A stretch of 40,059 nt of DNA from Paracoccaceae bacterium (lineage in GTDB: Bacteria > Pseudomonadota > Alphaproteobacteria > Rhodobacterales > Rhodobacteraceae): positions 1 to 40,059 of the forward strand of contig SBGD01000008.1 in assembly GCA_006226775.1 (NCBI GenBank). Direction: 5' to 3'. Numbering within the stretch: position 1 is the stretch's first letter; every line of letters begins with the position of its first letter. The notes beneath the pieces were generated by a model. That model saw only the letters and a list, made by a program, of their open reading frames with translations. It did no database searches and was not told the DNA's origin. Shown one piece after another: positions 1,311 to 30,261 of this stretch. The translations under genes and the position numbers were made by a program.

Positions 1311-1588
1311 CGAAAAACCGATCGGGTTCCACGGCGTCACACGCGCAAATTGAAACCGGGGGAATTTCAGGAGCTTCTCCGGCGGTCTCGCCGCGCTTGA
1401 CGTCTTCTCTGACCGTCCCGGCGCCCGCCCGGGCCGGGGGGCGGCGCGGAAATTTCTTGTTCAAGATACATTTCGGGCAAAGCATTTCCCGAATACGAGC
1501 ATTCATTTCGCCGTGTATCCTGCTTTTTTTGGGCTGTTGCGCGGTTTCCTCAATGCGCCTGCCGCGCCTTATTTCAAGGATTCACCCG
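1311..1588. other. Leader region of the acidic repeat gene
   Basis: No convincing gene is seen. 1450-1560 is clearly richer in A/T than its surroundings and includes a run of seven T at about 1524-1530, so it probably holds the promoter of the acidic repeat gene. The frame of that gene stays open upstream to 1307. From the TTG at about 1457 it would encode a basic then hydrophobic segment (FISPCILLFLGCCAVSS) resembling a signal peptide. An AAGGA at 1576-1580, 8 nt before ATG 1589, favours the downstream start. Confidence 0.4.
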
Positions 1589-2908
1589 ATGACCGCCACC
1601 GCTCCCCTCACCGCTGACCTGATCTCCGACCTGCTGGCCGAGGCGCAGACCGCGCTTCTGGCACCGCTGAGCTTTGGGCCCGAAGACGATGGCAATGAAG
1701 GCGACGAGGGCAATGAGGGCAACGAGGGCAATGAGGGTAACGAGGGCAACGAGGACAACGAAGGCAACGAGGGCGACGAGGGCAACGAGGCCGACGAAGG
1801 CAATGAGGGCAACGAGGACAACGAAGGCAACGAGAACGACGAAGGCAACGAGGACAACGAGGGCAACGAGGGCGACGAGCACAACGAAGGCGACGAAGGC
1901 GACGAGATCGCCGACGACACCTTCGAGCGTGGCAGCGATGAAGGCAACGAGGGCGACGAACACGACGAAGGCGACGAAACCCACGAAGGCGACGAGGGCG
2001 ACGAGAACGACGAGGGCGACGAGAACGACGAAGGTGACGAAGCCCACGAGGGTGACGAAGGCGACGAACACGACGAGAACAACGAAGGCGACGAGGGCGA
2101 CGAATACGTCGATCCTCAGGACGCCGCCGACGAGGGCGACGAGGACGACGAGGGCGACGAGGGCAACGAGGACGACGAAGCCAACGAAGGCGACGAAGGC
2201 GACGAACACGACGAGAACGACGAAGGCGACGAGGGCGACGAGGACGACGAGGACAACGAAGGCGACGAAGGCGACGAGATCGCCGATACCGACGGCGACC
2301 GTGGCACCGACGAAGGCGACGAGGACGACGAGGGCGACGAAGGCAACGAAGCCGACGAGGGCAACGAATACGACGAAGGCGACGAAACCGACAACCTTTA
2401 CGTGGCGGGGGATCCCTCTGATCCGGGCAATTACGTCTATACCTCGACCGAAGAGGGCAACGAGGGCAACGAAGCCGACGAGCACGACGAAGGCAACGAG
2501 GCCAACGAGGGCGACGAGGGCGACGAGATAGCCGCGTTCCACGGCGACGAAGGCAACGAAGGCCAGGAATACGACGAGGGCGACGAAGGCGACGAAGGCA
2601 ACGAGGACAACGAAGGCGACGAAGGCAACGAGGGCGACGAAGGCAACGAATCCGACGAAGGCGACGAGGACGACCAAGGCGACGAGGTCGCCGCCCCCGA
2701 TGGTGACGAGGACAACGAGGGTGACGAGAACGACGAGGACGATGAAGGCGCCAGCGACGAACACGCCGACAGCGGCGATGAAGGCGACGAGAACGACGAG
2801 GACGACGAGCACAACGAGGACGACGAAGGCGACGAATTCGACGAAGGCGACGAGGACGACGAGGACAACGAGGGCGACGAGGGCGAGGATGTCGATCTCT
2901 TCGAGTGA
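1589..2908 (+). CDS. Extremely acidic x-(D/N)-E tripeptide repeat protein
   Basis: I do not recognise this 439-residue protein as any named family. Residues 1-34 form an ordinary, partly amphipathic head (MTATAPLTADLISDLLAEAQ). The rest is about 110 tripeptides of the form x-(D/N)-E. Glu is nearly invariant at position 3 (I see one Gln replacement), Asp or Asn is at position 2, and mostly Gly but also Asp, His, Asn, Ala, Tyr or Thr is at position 1. The repeats fall into about eight blocks separated by short linkers, two of them related (IADDTFERGS and IADTDGDRGT). I see no Lys, Cys or Trp and only two Arg, so the net charge is hugely negative. AAGGA precedes ATG 1589; an upstream TTG start would add a signal-like segment. 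Cation binding or a disordered polyanion role is only inference. The flanking IS debris hints at an accessory region. Confidence 0.75.
   Translation: MTATAPLTADLISDLLAEAQTALLAPLSFGPEDDGNEGDEGNEGNEGNEGNEGNEDNEGNEGDEGNEADEGNEGNEDNEGNENDEGNEDNEGNEGDEHNEGDEGDEIADDTFERGSDEGNEGDEHDEGDETHEGDEGDENDEGDENDEGDEAHEGDEGDEHDENNEGDEGDEYVDPQDAADEGDEDDEGDEGNEDDEANEGDEGDEHDENDEGDEGDEDDEDNEGDEGDEIADTDGDRGTDEGDEDDEGDEGNEADEGNEYDEGDETDNLYVAGDPSDPGNYVYTSTEEGNEGNEADEHDEGNEANEGDEGDEIAAFHGDEGNEGQEYDEGDEGDEGNEDNEGDEGNEGDEGNESDEGDEDDQGDEVAAPDGDEDNEGDENDEDDEGASDEHADSGDEGDENDEDDEHNEDDEGDEFDEGDEDDEDNEGDEGEDVDLFE
1689..2897 (+). repeat. 9-bp coding repeat array (GGC RAC GAR)
   Basis: The tripeptide repeat is encoded by about 110 nine-base units of consensus GGC-(G/A)AC-GA(G/A), in blocks broken by short linkers. 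Unit boundaries stay in frame throughout, and GAA/GAG alternate freely. That implies divergence between units rather than a very recent expansion. The 5' blocks are richer in AAC (Asn) and the 3' blocks in GAC (Asp). The periodicity keeps long antisense frames open; these are artefacts of the repeat. Confidence 0.85.
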
Positions 2909-3236
2909 CGCCCCGGGCCGGGCGCGGCACCTGGCCTTCGCCTGACCTGTCGCGCCCCCCGGGCCTCGCGGGGGTCCGGGGGCGTCGGAGTTCCGCGGTC
3001 GGCACGGTCCTCGCCTGGGGGCCGACCGCGACAGCCCGCCCGCGCGCCGCAGCCTGGTGCGGATTGCCTGGTGCGGATTGCCTGGTGCGGATTGTCCCGA
3101 ACGGCCCTGCGCCGGCGCGGGGCAGGGCCTGGCGAAGGTATCTTTGGCGAAGGTATCTGGTGACACCCAGTCGGTATTGGACCCGGGCGCTCTGGCCGCG
3201 CATGTTATGGGCAATTGCCAGAGGACGGATGCGCCC
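2909..3236. other. Gene-free spacer with tandem repeats upstream of catB
   Basis: No gene is seen. The spacer holds three perfect head-to-tail copies of the 14-mer GCCTGGTGCGGATT (3052-3065, 3066-3079, 3080-3093). Next come two copies of GGCGAAGGTATCT 15 bp apart (3131-3143 and 3146-3158), each carrying a GGTATC half-site. The second half-site forms part of a putative LysR operator. The catB promoter is presumably between 3130 and 3236. Confidence 0.7.
3152..3167. promoter_or_regulatory. Putative LysR operator upstream of catB
   Basis: GGTATC-TGGT-GACACC is an imperfect inverted repeat with one mismatch to the GGTATC-N4-GATACC form found at 8106-8121. A further direct GGTATC half-site lies exactly 15 bp upstream (3137-3142), as LysR recognition and activation sites often do. 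The site is 70-85 bp before the catB start. Confidence 0.45.
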
Positions 3237-29425: not shown

Positions 29426-30195
29426 CCCGGGTCTTTCCCTTCGACCTGGGCCCGCCGATCGGCACGCGGGCCAATCTCGGGCTCATCGTGCTGCAATCGG
29501 ACGAAACCATCGAGCACGAGTTCCGCCGCCTTCTGCCCGCAAGCGGCGTGGCGCTTTATACCAGCCGCATCGCTTCGGCGCCCGAGGTCCGGCGCGAGAC
29601 GCTGGGCCGGATGGAGGCCGACATGCCGCGGGCGGCGGGGCTTCTGCCACGCCCGGTGCGCTTCGATGCGGTGGGCTATGCCTGCACCTCCGGCACCTCG
29701 GTCATCGGTGCGGCGCGGGTGGGCGAACTGGTCCGCGAGGGCTGCGCCACCCGCGCGGTGACCGAGCCGGTGAGCGCTTTGGTGGCGGCCTGCGCGCATC
29801 TGGGCGTGGCGCGGCTGGCGTTCCTGTCGCCCTATGTGGCGCAGGTGTCGGAGGGGATCCGCGCGGTCCTGGCCGAACGCGGCGTCGAGACGCCGGTCTT
29901 CGGCACGTTCGATGAGGCCGAGGAAACCCGGGTGGCGCGGATCGACCGCGCCTCGCTGATCGCCGCGGGAAGCGCCCTGGGCGCCGATCCGGCCTGCGAG
30001 GCGCTGTTTCTGTCCTGCACCAACCTGCGGACGCTGGAGTCCATCGCCCAGATCGAGGAGACCATCGGCAAACCGGTGCTGTCCAGCAACCAGGTGCTGG
30101 CCTGGCACATGCTCGGGCTGGCCGGGCAGGCGCGCGCACAGAAAGGCTTTGGCAGGCTGCTGGAAGGCGCGGCCAAAAAAAAGGCCGAGCACTAA
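29422..30195 (+). CDS. Asp/Glu racemase-superfamily (maleate isomerase-like) protein
   Basis: A 257-residue member of the Asp/Glu racemase, arylmalonate decarboxylase and maleate cis-trans isomerase superfamily. Two cysteine sites are conserved: GYACTSGTSVIG (about residue 88) and LFLSCTNLRTLE (about 195). LGLIVLQSDETIEHEF at the start is like maleate isomerase and EutA. The start is GTG 29422 inside the M24 stop. The last codons and stop (TAA 30193-30195) lie within the terminator of an antisense sRNA candidate. With the two preceding genes it forms a set similar in composition to eutA/eutB/eutD for ectoine use. Confidence 0.75.
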   Translation: MTRVFPFDLGPPIGTRANLGLIVLQSDETIEHEFRRLLPASGVALYTSRIASAPEVRRETLGRMEADMPRAAGLLPRPVRFDAVGYACTSGTSVIGAARVGELVREGCATRAVTEPVSALVAACAHLGVARLAFLSPYVAQVSEGIRAVLAERGVETPVFGTFDEAEETRVARIDRASLIAAGSALGADPACEALFLSCTNLRTLESIAQIEETIGKPVLSSNQVLAWHMLGLAGQARAQKGFGRLLEGAAKKKAEH

Positions 30196-30203
30196 GCTCG
30201 GCC
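30175..30203 (-). terminator. Rho-independent terminator of the sRNA candidate
   Basis: On the minus strand GGCCGAGC (30203-30196), the loop TTAGT and GCTCGGCC (30190-30183) are followed by eight T (30182-30175). On the plus strand the same stem lacks a T-run, so it acts mainly leftward. Confidence 0.85.
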
Positions 30204-30255
30204 AAAGTCCAACAGGGAGGTATGAAGTCTGGCGCGATGCGCAATCAAACTTCAT
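30175..30255 (-). ncRNA. Candidate trans-acting small RNA, about 80 nt
   Basis: On the minus strand a 5' hairpin (ATGAAGT 30255-30249 with ACTTCAT 30228-30222, containing an inner GCGC/GCGC stem) is followed by an unpaired CU-rich stretch ACCTCCCTGTTGGAC (anti-Shine-Dalgarno-like). A GC stem then ends in eight T. A -35 TTGATC and a -10 TATTTC with a 17-bp spacer place the start at about 30255, exactly at the hairpin foot. The layout matches Hfq-type sRNAs of alphaproteobacteria; the suhB/MmgR-type family is one to test. The 3' end is antisense to the racemase-like gene. Confidence 0.6.
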
Positions 30256-30261
30256 GACGCT

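Follow-up and report, generated by a model that had tools for sequence, protein, structure and literature searches.

The window analysed here, a stretch of 40,059 nucleotides, is the entire contig C4 of a 104-contig genome. It carries a real open reading frame with its ATG at 1589 and its stop codon at 2906–2908, preceded by a Shine-Dalgarno-like AAGGA (1576..1580, +) 8 nt upstream of the start. The product (1589..2908, +), a protein of 439 amino acids with a paralogue elsewhere in the same genome, consists of a head, an array of x-(D/N)-E tripeptides and a short tail. The leader-like head of 34 residues (1589..1690, +) has LLAPLSF close to its end, and is followed by a block of 24 units without a break (1691..1906, +), the linker IADDTFERG (1907..1933, +), a block with runs of 5, 6 and 6 units and two in-phase variant stretches (1934..2104, +), and a block of 17 units (2126..2278, +). 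A further linker, IADTDGDRG (2279..2305, +), which by eye resembles the first, leads into a block of 9 units (2306..2386, +), and the last runs, of 8, 2, 11, 5 and 12 units with short breaks between them (2456..2881, +), end at the eight-residue tail GEDVDLFE (2882..2905, +). TRF places the array at 1685–2886, with periods of 9, 18 and 27. Since the repeat is stop-free, long open frames also exist on the opposite strand, as a trivial consequence.

This analysis bore out the first-pass annotation in its description of the gene. It had estimated about 110 tripeptides in about eight blocks; we counted 107 in-frame units, arranged as 11 runs of at least two (24, 5, 6, 6, 17, 9, 8, 2, 11, 5 and 12) and two single units, and recognised by eye about seven true linkers, which give eight blocks, the other breaks being in-phase variants. 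The composition (E 117, D 106, G 75, N 45, R 2; net charge -221) likewise includes no Lys, Cys or Trp. The first residue of the unit had been called mostly Gly, and Gly is indeed the commonest, but no more than about 56% of the units in the window array begin with it.

At the contig's left end lies a C-terminal fragment of an IS3-family transposase (57–362, +; NF033516, 56.5 bits against a cut-off of 160), a remnant that possibly marks the route by which the orphan array arrived. Downstream of the array gene are a muconate cycloisomerase-family gene, a LysR regulator, a PcaD-like hydrolase and a TRAP solute-binding gene, and the window also contains the singlet-oxygen resistance sRNA SorX (30177–30261, -; RF02784, 50.3 bits, above the gathering score). 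The array gene is separated from the next by a stretch with three perfect 14-bp tandem copies (GCCTGGTGCGGATT) at 3052–3094, followed by a 15-bp repeat at 3130–3158. Among the neighbours looked at, there was no oxygenase or exporter gene beside the window copy.

A second array lies at 42749–43249 of contig C103, where it runs off the contig end; its head resembles that of the window protein. Its neighbours (G000:C103:37.5–43.2 kb) are genes for a protein with an HExxH motif (HEFGHA), a 2OG-Fe(II) oxygenase, a type I ABC protein and an HlyD adaptor. The oxygenase passed the cut-offs of both TIGR02466 (262.6 bits, cut-off 62.5) and PF13759 (82.3 bits, cut-off 27), and the adaptor passed that of TIGR01843 (321 bits, cut-off 208.65); the best model for the ABC protein was TIGR01842, at 354.9 bits and below its cut-off of 510. 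Among solved structures, the best profile matches of the HEFGHA protein are weak: oligoendopeptidase F and 3ce2, a putative peptidase (E 7.6e-4). Following a lead in PMC13060819, it might instead be an alpha-KG-HExxH hydroxylase. The window copy, having no such machinery beside it, is thus an orphan that is presumably served in trans by the gene set on C103.

When the GTDB species-genome collection was searched with the first 116 residues of the window protein, homologues were found at 45 array-matching loci, mostly in Rhodobacteraceae, with others in Mesorhizobium, Shinella, another member of the Rhizobiaceae, Sphingomicrobium, Aurantimonadaceae and a planctomycete. The short matches at L039, L045 and L054 were taken for chance and rejected as arrays. 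A search of plasmids with the array returned no match, a result made uninformative by the BLAST low-complexity filter. The proteins fall largely into two architectures. Class A, to which the window protein belongs by its head and its want of a Cys-rich tail, is marked by a P-[VIL]-S-F-type motif in the head and by a tail that is short or absent. Among class A heads chosen by linkage, 11 of 16 contain [AS]P[VIL]SF and 15 of 16 [VIL]SF (the 18 class A heads that were aligned had been picked by the motif itself and so are no test of it). An oxygenase gene lies inside the locus in 16 of the 45 cases, and within the limited flanks of these 16 there is an ABC gene in 15, an HEFGHA gene in 13 and an HlyD gene in 7. 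The class A HExxH proteins have weak or no family matches.

Class B proteins combine the same kind of array with a head that ends in a double glycine (17 of 17 aligned) and a conserved, Cys-rich tail (19 aligned), which gave weak matches, below the cut-off, to a 'Cys-every-fifth' RiPP peptide model (E 0.0012 and 0.14). In seven class B loci an oxygenase gene lies 0.6–5.6 kb past the locus edge. Sixteen 20-kb stretches were then fetched around oxygenase matches, so that the presence of the oxygenase in them is by choice, and nine contained an intact class B cluster. All nine have a gene for a C39 peptidase (PF03412) and a gene of about 540 codons whose product is HlyD-like by eye; eight have a second HExxH gene, PEP2, seven the array and eight a radical-SAM gene, which the ninth genome (Arenibacterium) carries at another of its loci (L024). 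The radical-SAM/SPASM protein is nearest to the RiPP maturase model TIGR04463 (480.7 bits, cut-off 525), the CefB match being lower. No Pfam or NCBIfam model matched the HlyD-like protein, a 410-aa protein or PEP2, and none indicated an ABC ATPase domain in the C39 protein; the identification of export genes in class B is accordingly weak. The oxygenase of the class B arrays belongs to the same subgroup as that of class A.

Other arrangements also occur. At L071 (10447–16458) a 64-unit array is embedded within the Gly/Asp repeats of an RTX-type protein of 2003 aa, with an oxygenase gene adjoining, and in the planctomycete the array gene, whose product has by eye a signal-peptide-like start, lies directly ahead of the oxygenase gene. 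Seohaeicola (L014, L027, L030, L043) and MAG3 (L011, L013, L021, L031) have at least four array loci each, and each genome has a single close orthologue of the oxygenase besides one distant paralogue. Marine isolates amenable to culture that carry the cluster include Marinovum algicola, Sulfitobacter maritimus and Sedimentitalea. In Falsiruegeria mediterranea the oxygenase gene is split into two, the match being interrupted by a stop (L075, 9238–9874); the locus keeps a 53-unit array and exporter genes, and the other array locus of this genome (L048) is short.

To what extent the repeat is under selection as protein can be read from its codons. Unit-to-unit pN/pS (NG86-type) over the 107 window units was 0.35 overall, well below 1, and 0.39–0.43 under looser choices of unit. 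By position it was 0.46 at D/N, 0.00 at E and 3.4 at x, values that are biased downward at D/N and E because the selection of units demands these residues; the x codons end in C in all but 5 of 107 units. The Glu codons of the window mix GAA and GAG (57% GAG) with the amino acid unchanged, and the same holds across the arrays of the family, with 5364 GAA and 2821 GAG. The array is a protein-level feature, selected at the amino-acid level, just as the first-pass annotation had argued from the frame being kept despite GAA/GAG variation.

The residue rules of the family were derived from counts that leave out sub-copies or overlaps of counted loci (L001–L008, L055–L070, L073, L074, L080), the frame-disrupted L041, and L039, L045 and L054. 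Where at least six ..E triplets follow one another, 8175 of 8396 have D or N at position 2 and 30 have E; where at least six.[DN]. triplets do so, 7973 of 8170 have E at position 3 and 47 have D. Arrays range from 29 to 663 phase-locked triplets, the upper value coming from Seohaeicola (L030), and the share of Gly at first positions from 39 to 93% array by array; Pro is rare (23 of 3 x 8322 positions). For the order of D and N and the influence of GC, contig-end fragments (L034, L047, L051, L052) and arrays of fewer than 40 units were also left out. By a chi-square test on 7129 pairs, the succession of D and N proved random (p 0.94). The Asn share drops with rising flanking GC (rho -0.41, p 0.01, 39 arrays). 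It also varies with the first residue of the unit, from 0.36 after Asn to 0.53 after Asp, and the choice between D and N is therefore not wholly context-free. On the whole, however, selection sees 'Asp or Asn' at position 2 and not charge. Plain charge selection was rejected, as Asn is common at this position and Asp and Glu are not interchanged. A polyanion with a fixed acidic side chain, as first proposed, is thus real and selected, but its charge alone is not what is conserved. With position 2 held to Asp or Asn, Asn common, Glu found only 30 times and the order of the two random, the pattern looks like recognition of an Asp/Asn side chain.

We then considered the oxygenase. Across 16 orthologues H116, H118, H186 and R202 are invariant. 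An AlphaFold2 model (mean pLDDT 87.3, pTM 0.86) is strand-rich and puts these residues in strands or beside them, H116 and H186 within strands and R202 at the start of the final one. Such placement is as expected for 2OG oxygenases, which have a double-stranded beta-helix fold. In place of the HxD/E...H facial triad the protein has HxH. For a site without a carboxylate ligand there is a precedent in AspH, which binds iron with two His only (PMC6817910). Solved relatives by profile are PDB 3bvc (E 1.6e-17) and 2rg4 (E 3.7e-17), with the HxHP and the distal His aligned; both are distant members of the same superfamily, deposited as uncharacterised and of unknown function. In a tree, array-linked oxygenases group apart from the four array-less homologues that were included, with a weak support of 0.52 (0.95 for the A-like part, 0.999 for the B part). 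A distant paralogue (27–33% identity) is present in 15 of the 17 genomes of the first set searched (see below).

Oxygenase matches also occur in phages, in 189 of 50,697 records, of which 166 are named Synechococcus phage or cyanophage and 180 Synechococcus, Prochlorococcus or cyanophage; identities were 32–36% among the ten matches listed. Substrates of the phage enzymes might be sought among repetitive phage proteins. A cyanophage genome paper names TIGR02466 (PMC9964418) and PF13759 appears in phycodnaviruses as a hypothetical protein (PMC10598087). Excerpts from the open-access PMC literature gave no account of the repeat, of the gene pair or of a TIGR02466 substrate; the letters GNEGNEG occur in a nanopore-linker paper (PMC12610258). 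That the repeat has no named family, as initially suspected, is in line with these excerpts and with Pfam and NCBIfam, where the arrays scanned have only collagen-like matches, which we put down to their Gly periodicity.

Close oxygenase homologues were found in 29 of the 34 distinct genomes that lie behind all 45 loci and the window's own genome. These come from two overlapping searches of 17 and 20 genomes with three in common: the oxygenase was found in 17 of 17 in the first (worst best-match E 3.9e-76) and in 15 of 20 in the second (E <= 1e-40). Three of the five genomes lacking it are those with short repeats only (L039, L045, L054), which leaves 29 of 31 among genomes whose arrays are, in our judgement, real. 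The other two are a Sphingomicrobium MAG of 2.3 Mb with the frame-disrupted array (L041) and an Aurantimonadaceae MAG of 2.8 Mb (L052).

As a test that depends less on the loci, 248 genomes of the window's family (247 genera) were searched with both queries, at most six candidates per genome being scored for the array, by which an array could be missed. The oxygenase (E <= 1e-40) was present in 13 genomes and strong array matches (E <= 1e-15, a line drawn after the matches were known) in 8; all 8 strong-array genomes had the oxygenase, as against 5 of the 240 others (Fisher p 4e-12). With all array matches at E <= 1e-6, the oxygenase was present in 8 of 13 against 5 of 235 (p 5e-9). A codon-specific pattern search agreed, finding 6 genomes, all within the 13 oxygenase-positive ones. 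In one of the eight strong-array genomes (G118), the array protein beside the oxygenase is a different, degenerate one. Five weak matches (G036, G065, G114, G199 and G250) are runs of GNQ, HEG, HEG, GNR and PTE, respectively, and were not counted because they have no x-(D/N)-E unit in the match frame. Strict tripeptide runs of other kinds (GNQ, HEG, GNR) were also observed at L081, L083 and L084, in proteins whose downstream parts look alike and which we take, by eye, to be haloperoxidase or PAP2-like.

In five of the 13 oxygenase-positive family genomes the search gave no array match. Two of these (G135 and G236, 78% and 75% complete) have, close to the end of a contig, an oxygenase gene paired with PEP2 as in class B, the G236 oxygenase match having stops inside; a third (G231) has a decayed class B cluster, and G083 and G187 have divergent oxygenases in other contexts. 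Beyond the family, the oxygenase (E <= 1e-40) was found in two others among 385 genomes of the class and, apart from the window's own genome, in none of 398 genomes of the phylum. No array was seen near the two class-level oxygenases, the genes of G083 and G187 or the one on a Pseudooceanicola plasmid (44% identity); the homologues of 44–50% identity with no array in view comprise L077, L078, L089 and L090 besides the plasmid gene. Membership of the enzyme family therefore does not fix the substrate, and it is a subgroup of TIGR02466, rather than the whole of it, that is linked to the array.

Arrays that travel with one iron enzyme and with export or processing genes suggest a secreted, chemically modified natural polymer. 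The reading we favour, and consider fairly probable, is that the array is a leader-bearing, exported polymer with beta-hydroxylated Asp/Asn, and that the polymer-making machinery on C103 has, in the product of the window gene, a second substrate encoded apart from it. The head, to judge from its conservation, would act as a leader. The dedicated 2OG-Fe(II) oxygenase of the TIGR02466 subgroup would then beta-hydroxylate the Asp/Asn of the x-(D/N)-E units, as linkage, co-occurrence and the equivalence of Asp and Asn suggest. Oxygenases that hydroxylate both Asp and Asn are known (AspH), as is Asp hydroxylation in RiPPs, and Asp/Asn beta-hydroxylation is therefore the most economical reading. From gene linkage and family matches, the type I ABC protein and HlyD adaptor would export the chain, perhaps with processing by one or two HExxH-motif proteins. 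Outside the cell, the result would be a long, flexible (hydroxy)Asp/Asn-Glu polymer that serves, speculatively, to bind cations (divalent or ferric) or to form a matrix at the surface. In class B the same array would be handled with a double-glycine leader, a Cys-rich tail, a C39 peptidase, a radical-SAM maturase and an oxygenase of the same subgroup.

The favoured reading has to be set against one in which the oxygenase acts on the head, on Glu, on Gly or on a target outside the array, leaving the array as an unmodified secreted polyanion that serves as a Ca2+ or metal buffer or as a hydration or osmotic layer. Linkage is an association and does not tell which residue is modified, acidic chains bind Ca2+, and one array sits within RTX-type repeats (L071), all of which suit such a polyanion. 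Yet an array kept for its charge only would not have Asn so common at position 2 and would let Asp and Glu interchange, neither of which fits, and a target in the head sits poorly with the heads being different in classes A and B, which have the array and the oxygenase subgroup in common; we regard this alternative as rather unlikely. An intracellular role as nucleic-acid mimic or cation sink, raised by the first-pass annotation and in keeping with the extreme negative charge of the window protein, is disfavoured because export and leader-processing genes are linked to the arrays: ABC and HlyD genes in class A, a double-glycine leader and C39 peptidase in class B, besides the RTX-embedded array. 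It now seems improbable. Of the other suggestions made there, a PPII-like chain is conceivable, and so is a role in binding metal or nucleating mineral on the outside of the cell.

Two further explanations turn on the repeat itself. A collagen-like triple helix with its hydroxylase, after the model of collagen and prolyl hydroxylase, would account for Gly being the commonest first residue and for Collagen being the sole Pfam match of the window ORF at E <= 0.01 (23.6 bits, cut-off 27.2); the C103 paralogue scores 38.3 bits, above the cut-off, and NCBIfam collagen-like adhesin models match arrays, all far below theirs. But Gly, at 56% of first positions and with a longest strict Gly-every-third run of 7 triplets in the window, is not obligatory, on which ground collagen was rejected; the near-fixed residue is Glu, and Pro is rare, making a collagen-like helix quite unlikely. 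A selfish or neutral expansion, with the open frame as a by-product of a 9-bp DNA repeat, would agree with unit-repetitive arrays of such variable length (29 to 663 triplets) and with the IS3 remnant near the window copy. Free third bases in Glu codons under a fixed amino acid and pN/pS well below 1 led us to reject a DNA-level repeat, and conserved heads and tails and linked machinery genes also speak against it, so that it is the most improbable of these readings.

Asp/Asn hydroxylation along an exported chain, if true, would mean that bacteria make hydroxylated poly-amino-acid chains with the ribosome and one oxygenase, by a collagen-like logic with different chemistry. It would also provide the first proposed substrate for a TIGR02466 oxygenase subgroup, and a genetically tunable metal-binding polymer. 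The fullest form of the claim, which we put forward tentatively, is that these proteins constitute a new class of gene-encoded biopolymer: chains from the ribosome with as many as about 660 x-(hydroxy-Asp/Asn)-Glu units, hydroxylated throughout by a dedicated 2OG oxygenase and served by two export and processing gene sets. Outside the cell such a chain, with one hydroxy-acid-like ligand per three residues, would bind metal or form a matrix.

The system shares features with several known ones. Collagen with prolyl hydroxylase combines a three-residue repeat, a 2OG hydroxylase and secretion; here, in contrast, Gly can be replaced, there is little Pro and hydroxylation would most likely fall on Asp/Asn. 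RTX proteins of type I secretion are repetitive and acidic and are linked to ABC and HlyD genes, as are the arrays, one of which is embedded in an RTX-type protein; linkage of both gene types to the substrate was found in class A only, and the window protein, by eye in its translation, has neither GGxGxDxxx nonapeptides nor an RTX-type C-terminal region. The residues hydroxylated by FIH include Asp, and to our knowledge neither AspH nor FIH belongs to PF13759. Like the array oxygenase as we read it, both are 2OG oxygenases that modify side chains within recurring protein motifs: human AspH hydroxylates both Asp and Asn (PMC6817910), and the targets of FIH are Asn and other residues in ankyrin repeats (PMC3569879, PMC9189129). 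Their substrates are folded EGF or ankyrin domains, whereas here the arrays are linear and acidic.

RiPP pathways with Asp hydroxylation are also close, among them that of cinnamycin, in which CinX is the enzyme. The likeness lies in the leader-like head, the gene for a non-heme iron enzyme beside the precursor gene and the exporter, and in class B also in the C39 peptidase and the radical-SAM/SPASM protein. Other iron enzymes beta-hydroxylate Asp in RiPP pathways as well, for instance PesHI of nitrilobacillin (PMC13060819). The differences are that the core here is an array of tens to hundreds of units instead of a short peptide, that the oxygenase is of PF13759, and that array copies are often unlinked to the enzyme. 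Classes A and B both have a ribosomal precursor with a conserved, leader-like head and a putative modifying enzyme encoded with it, which for the window copy is present only in trans, on C103. Because every component type is known and class B has most of the features of a RiPP, we would place the system as RiPP-like or as a secreted modified polymer; should hydroxylation along the array hold, the polymer would be new as a category.
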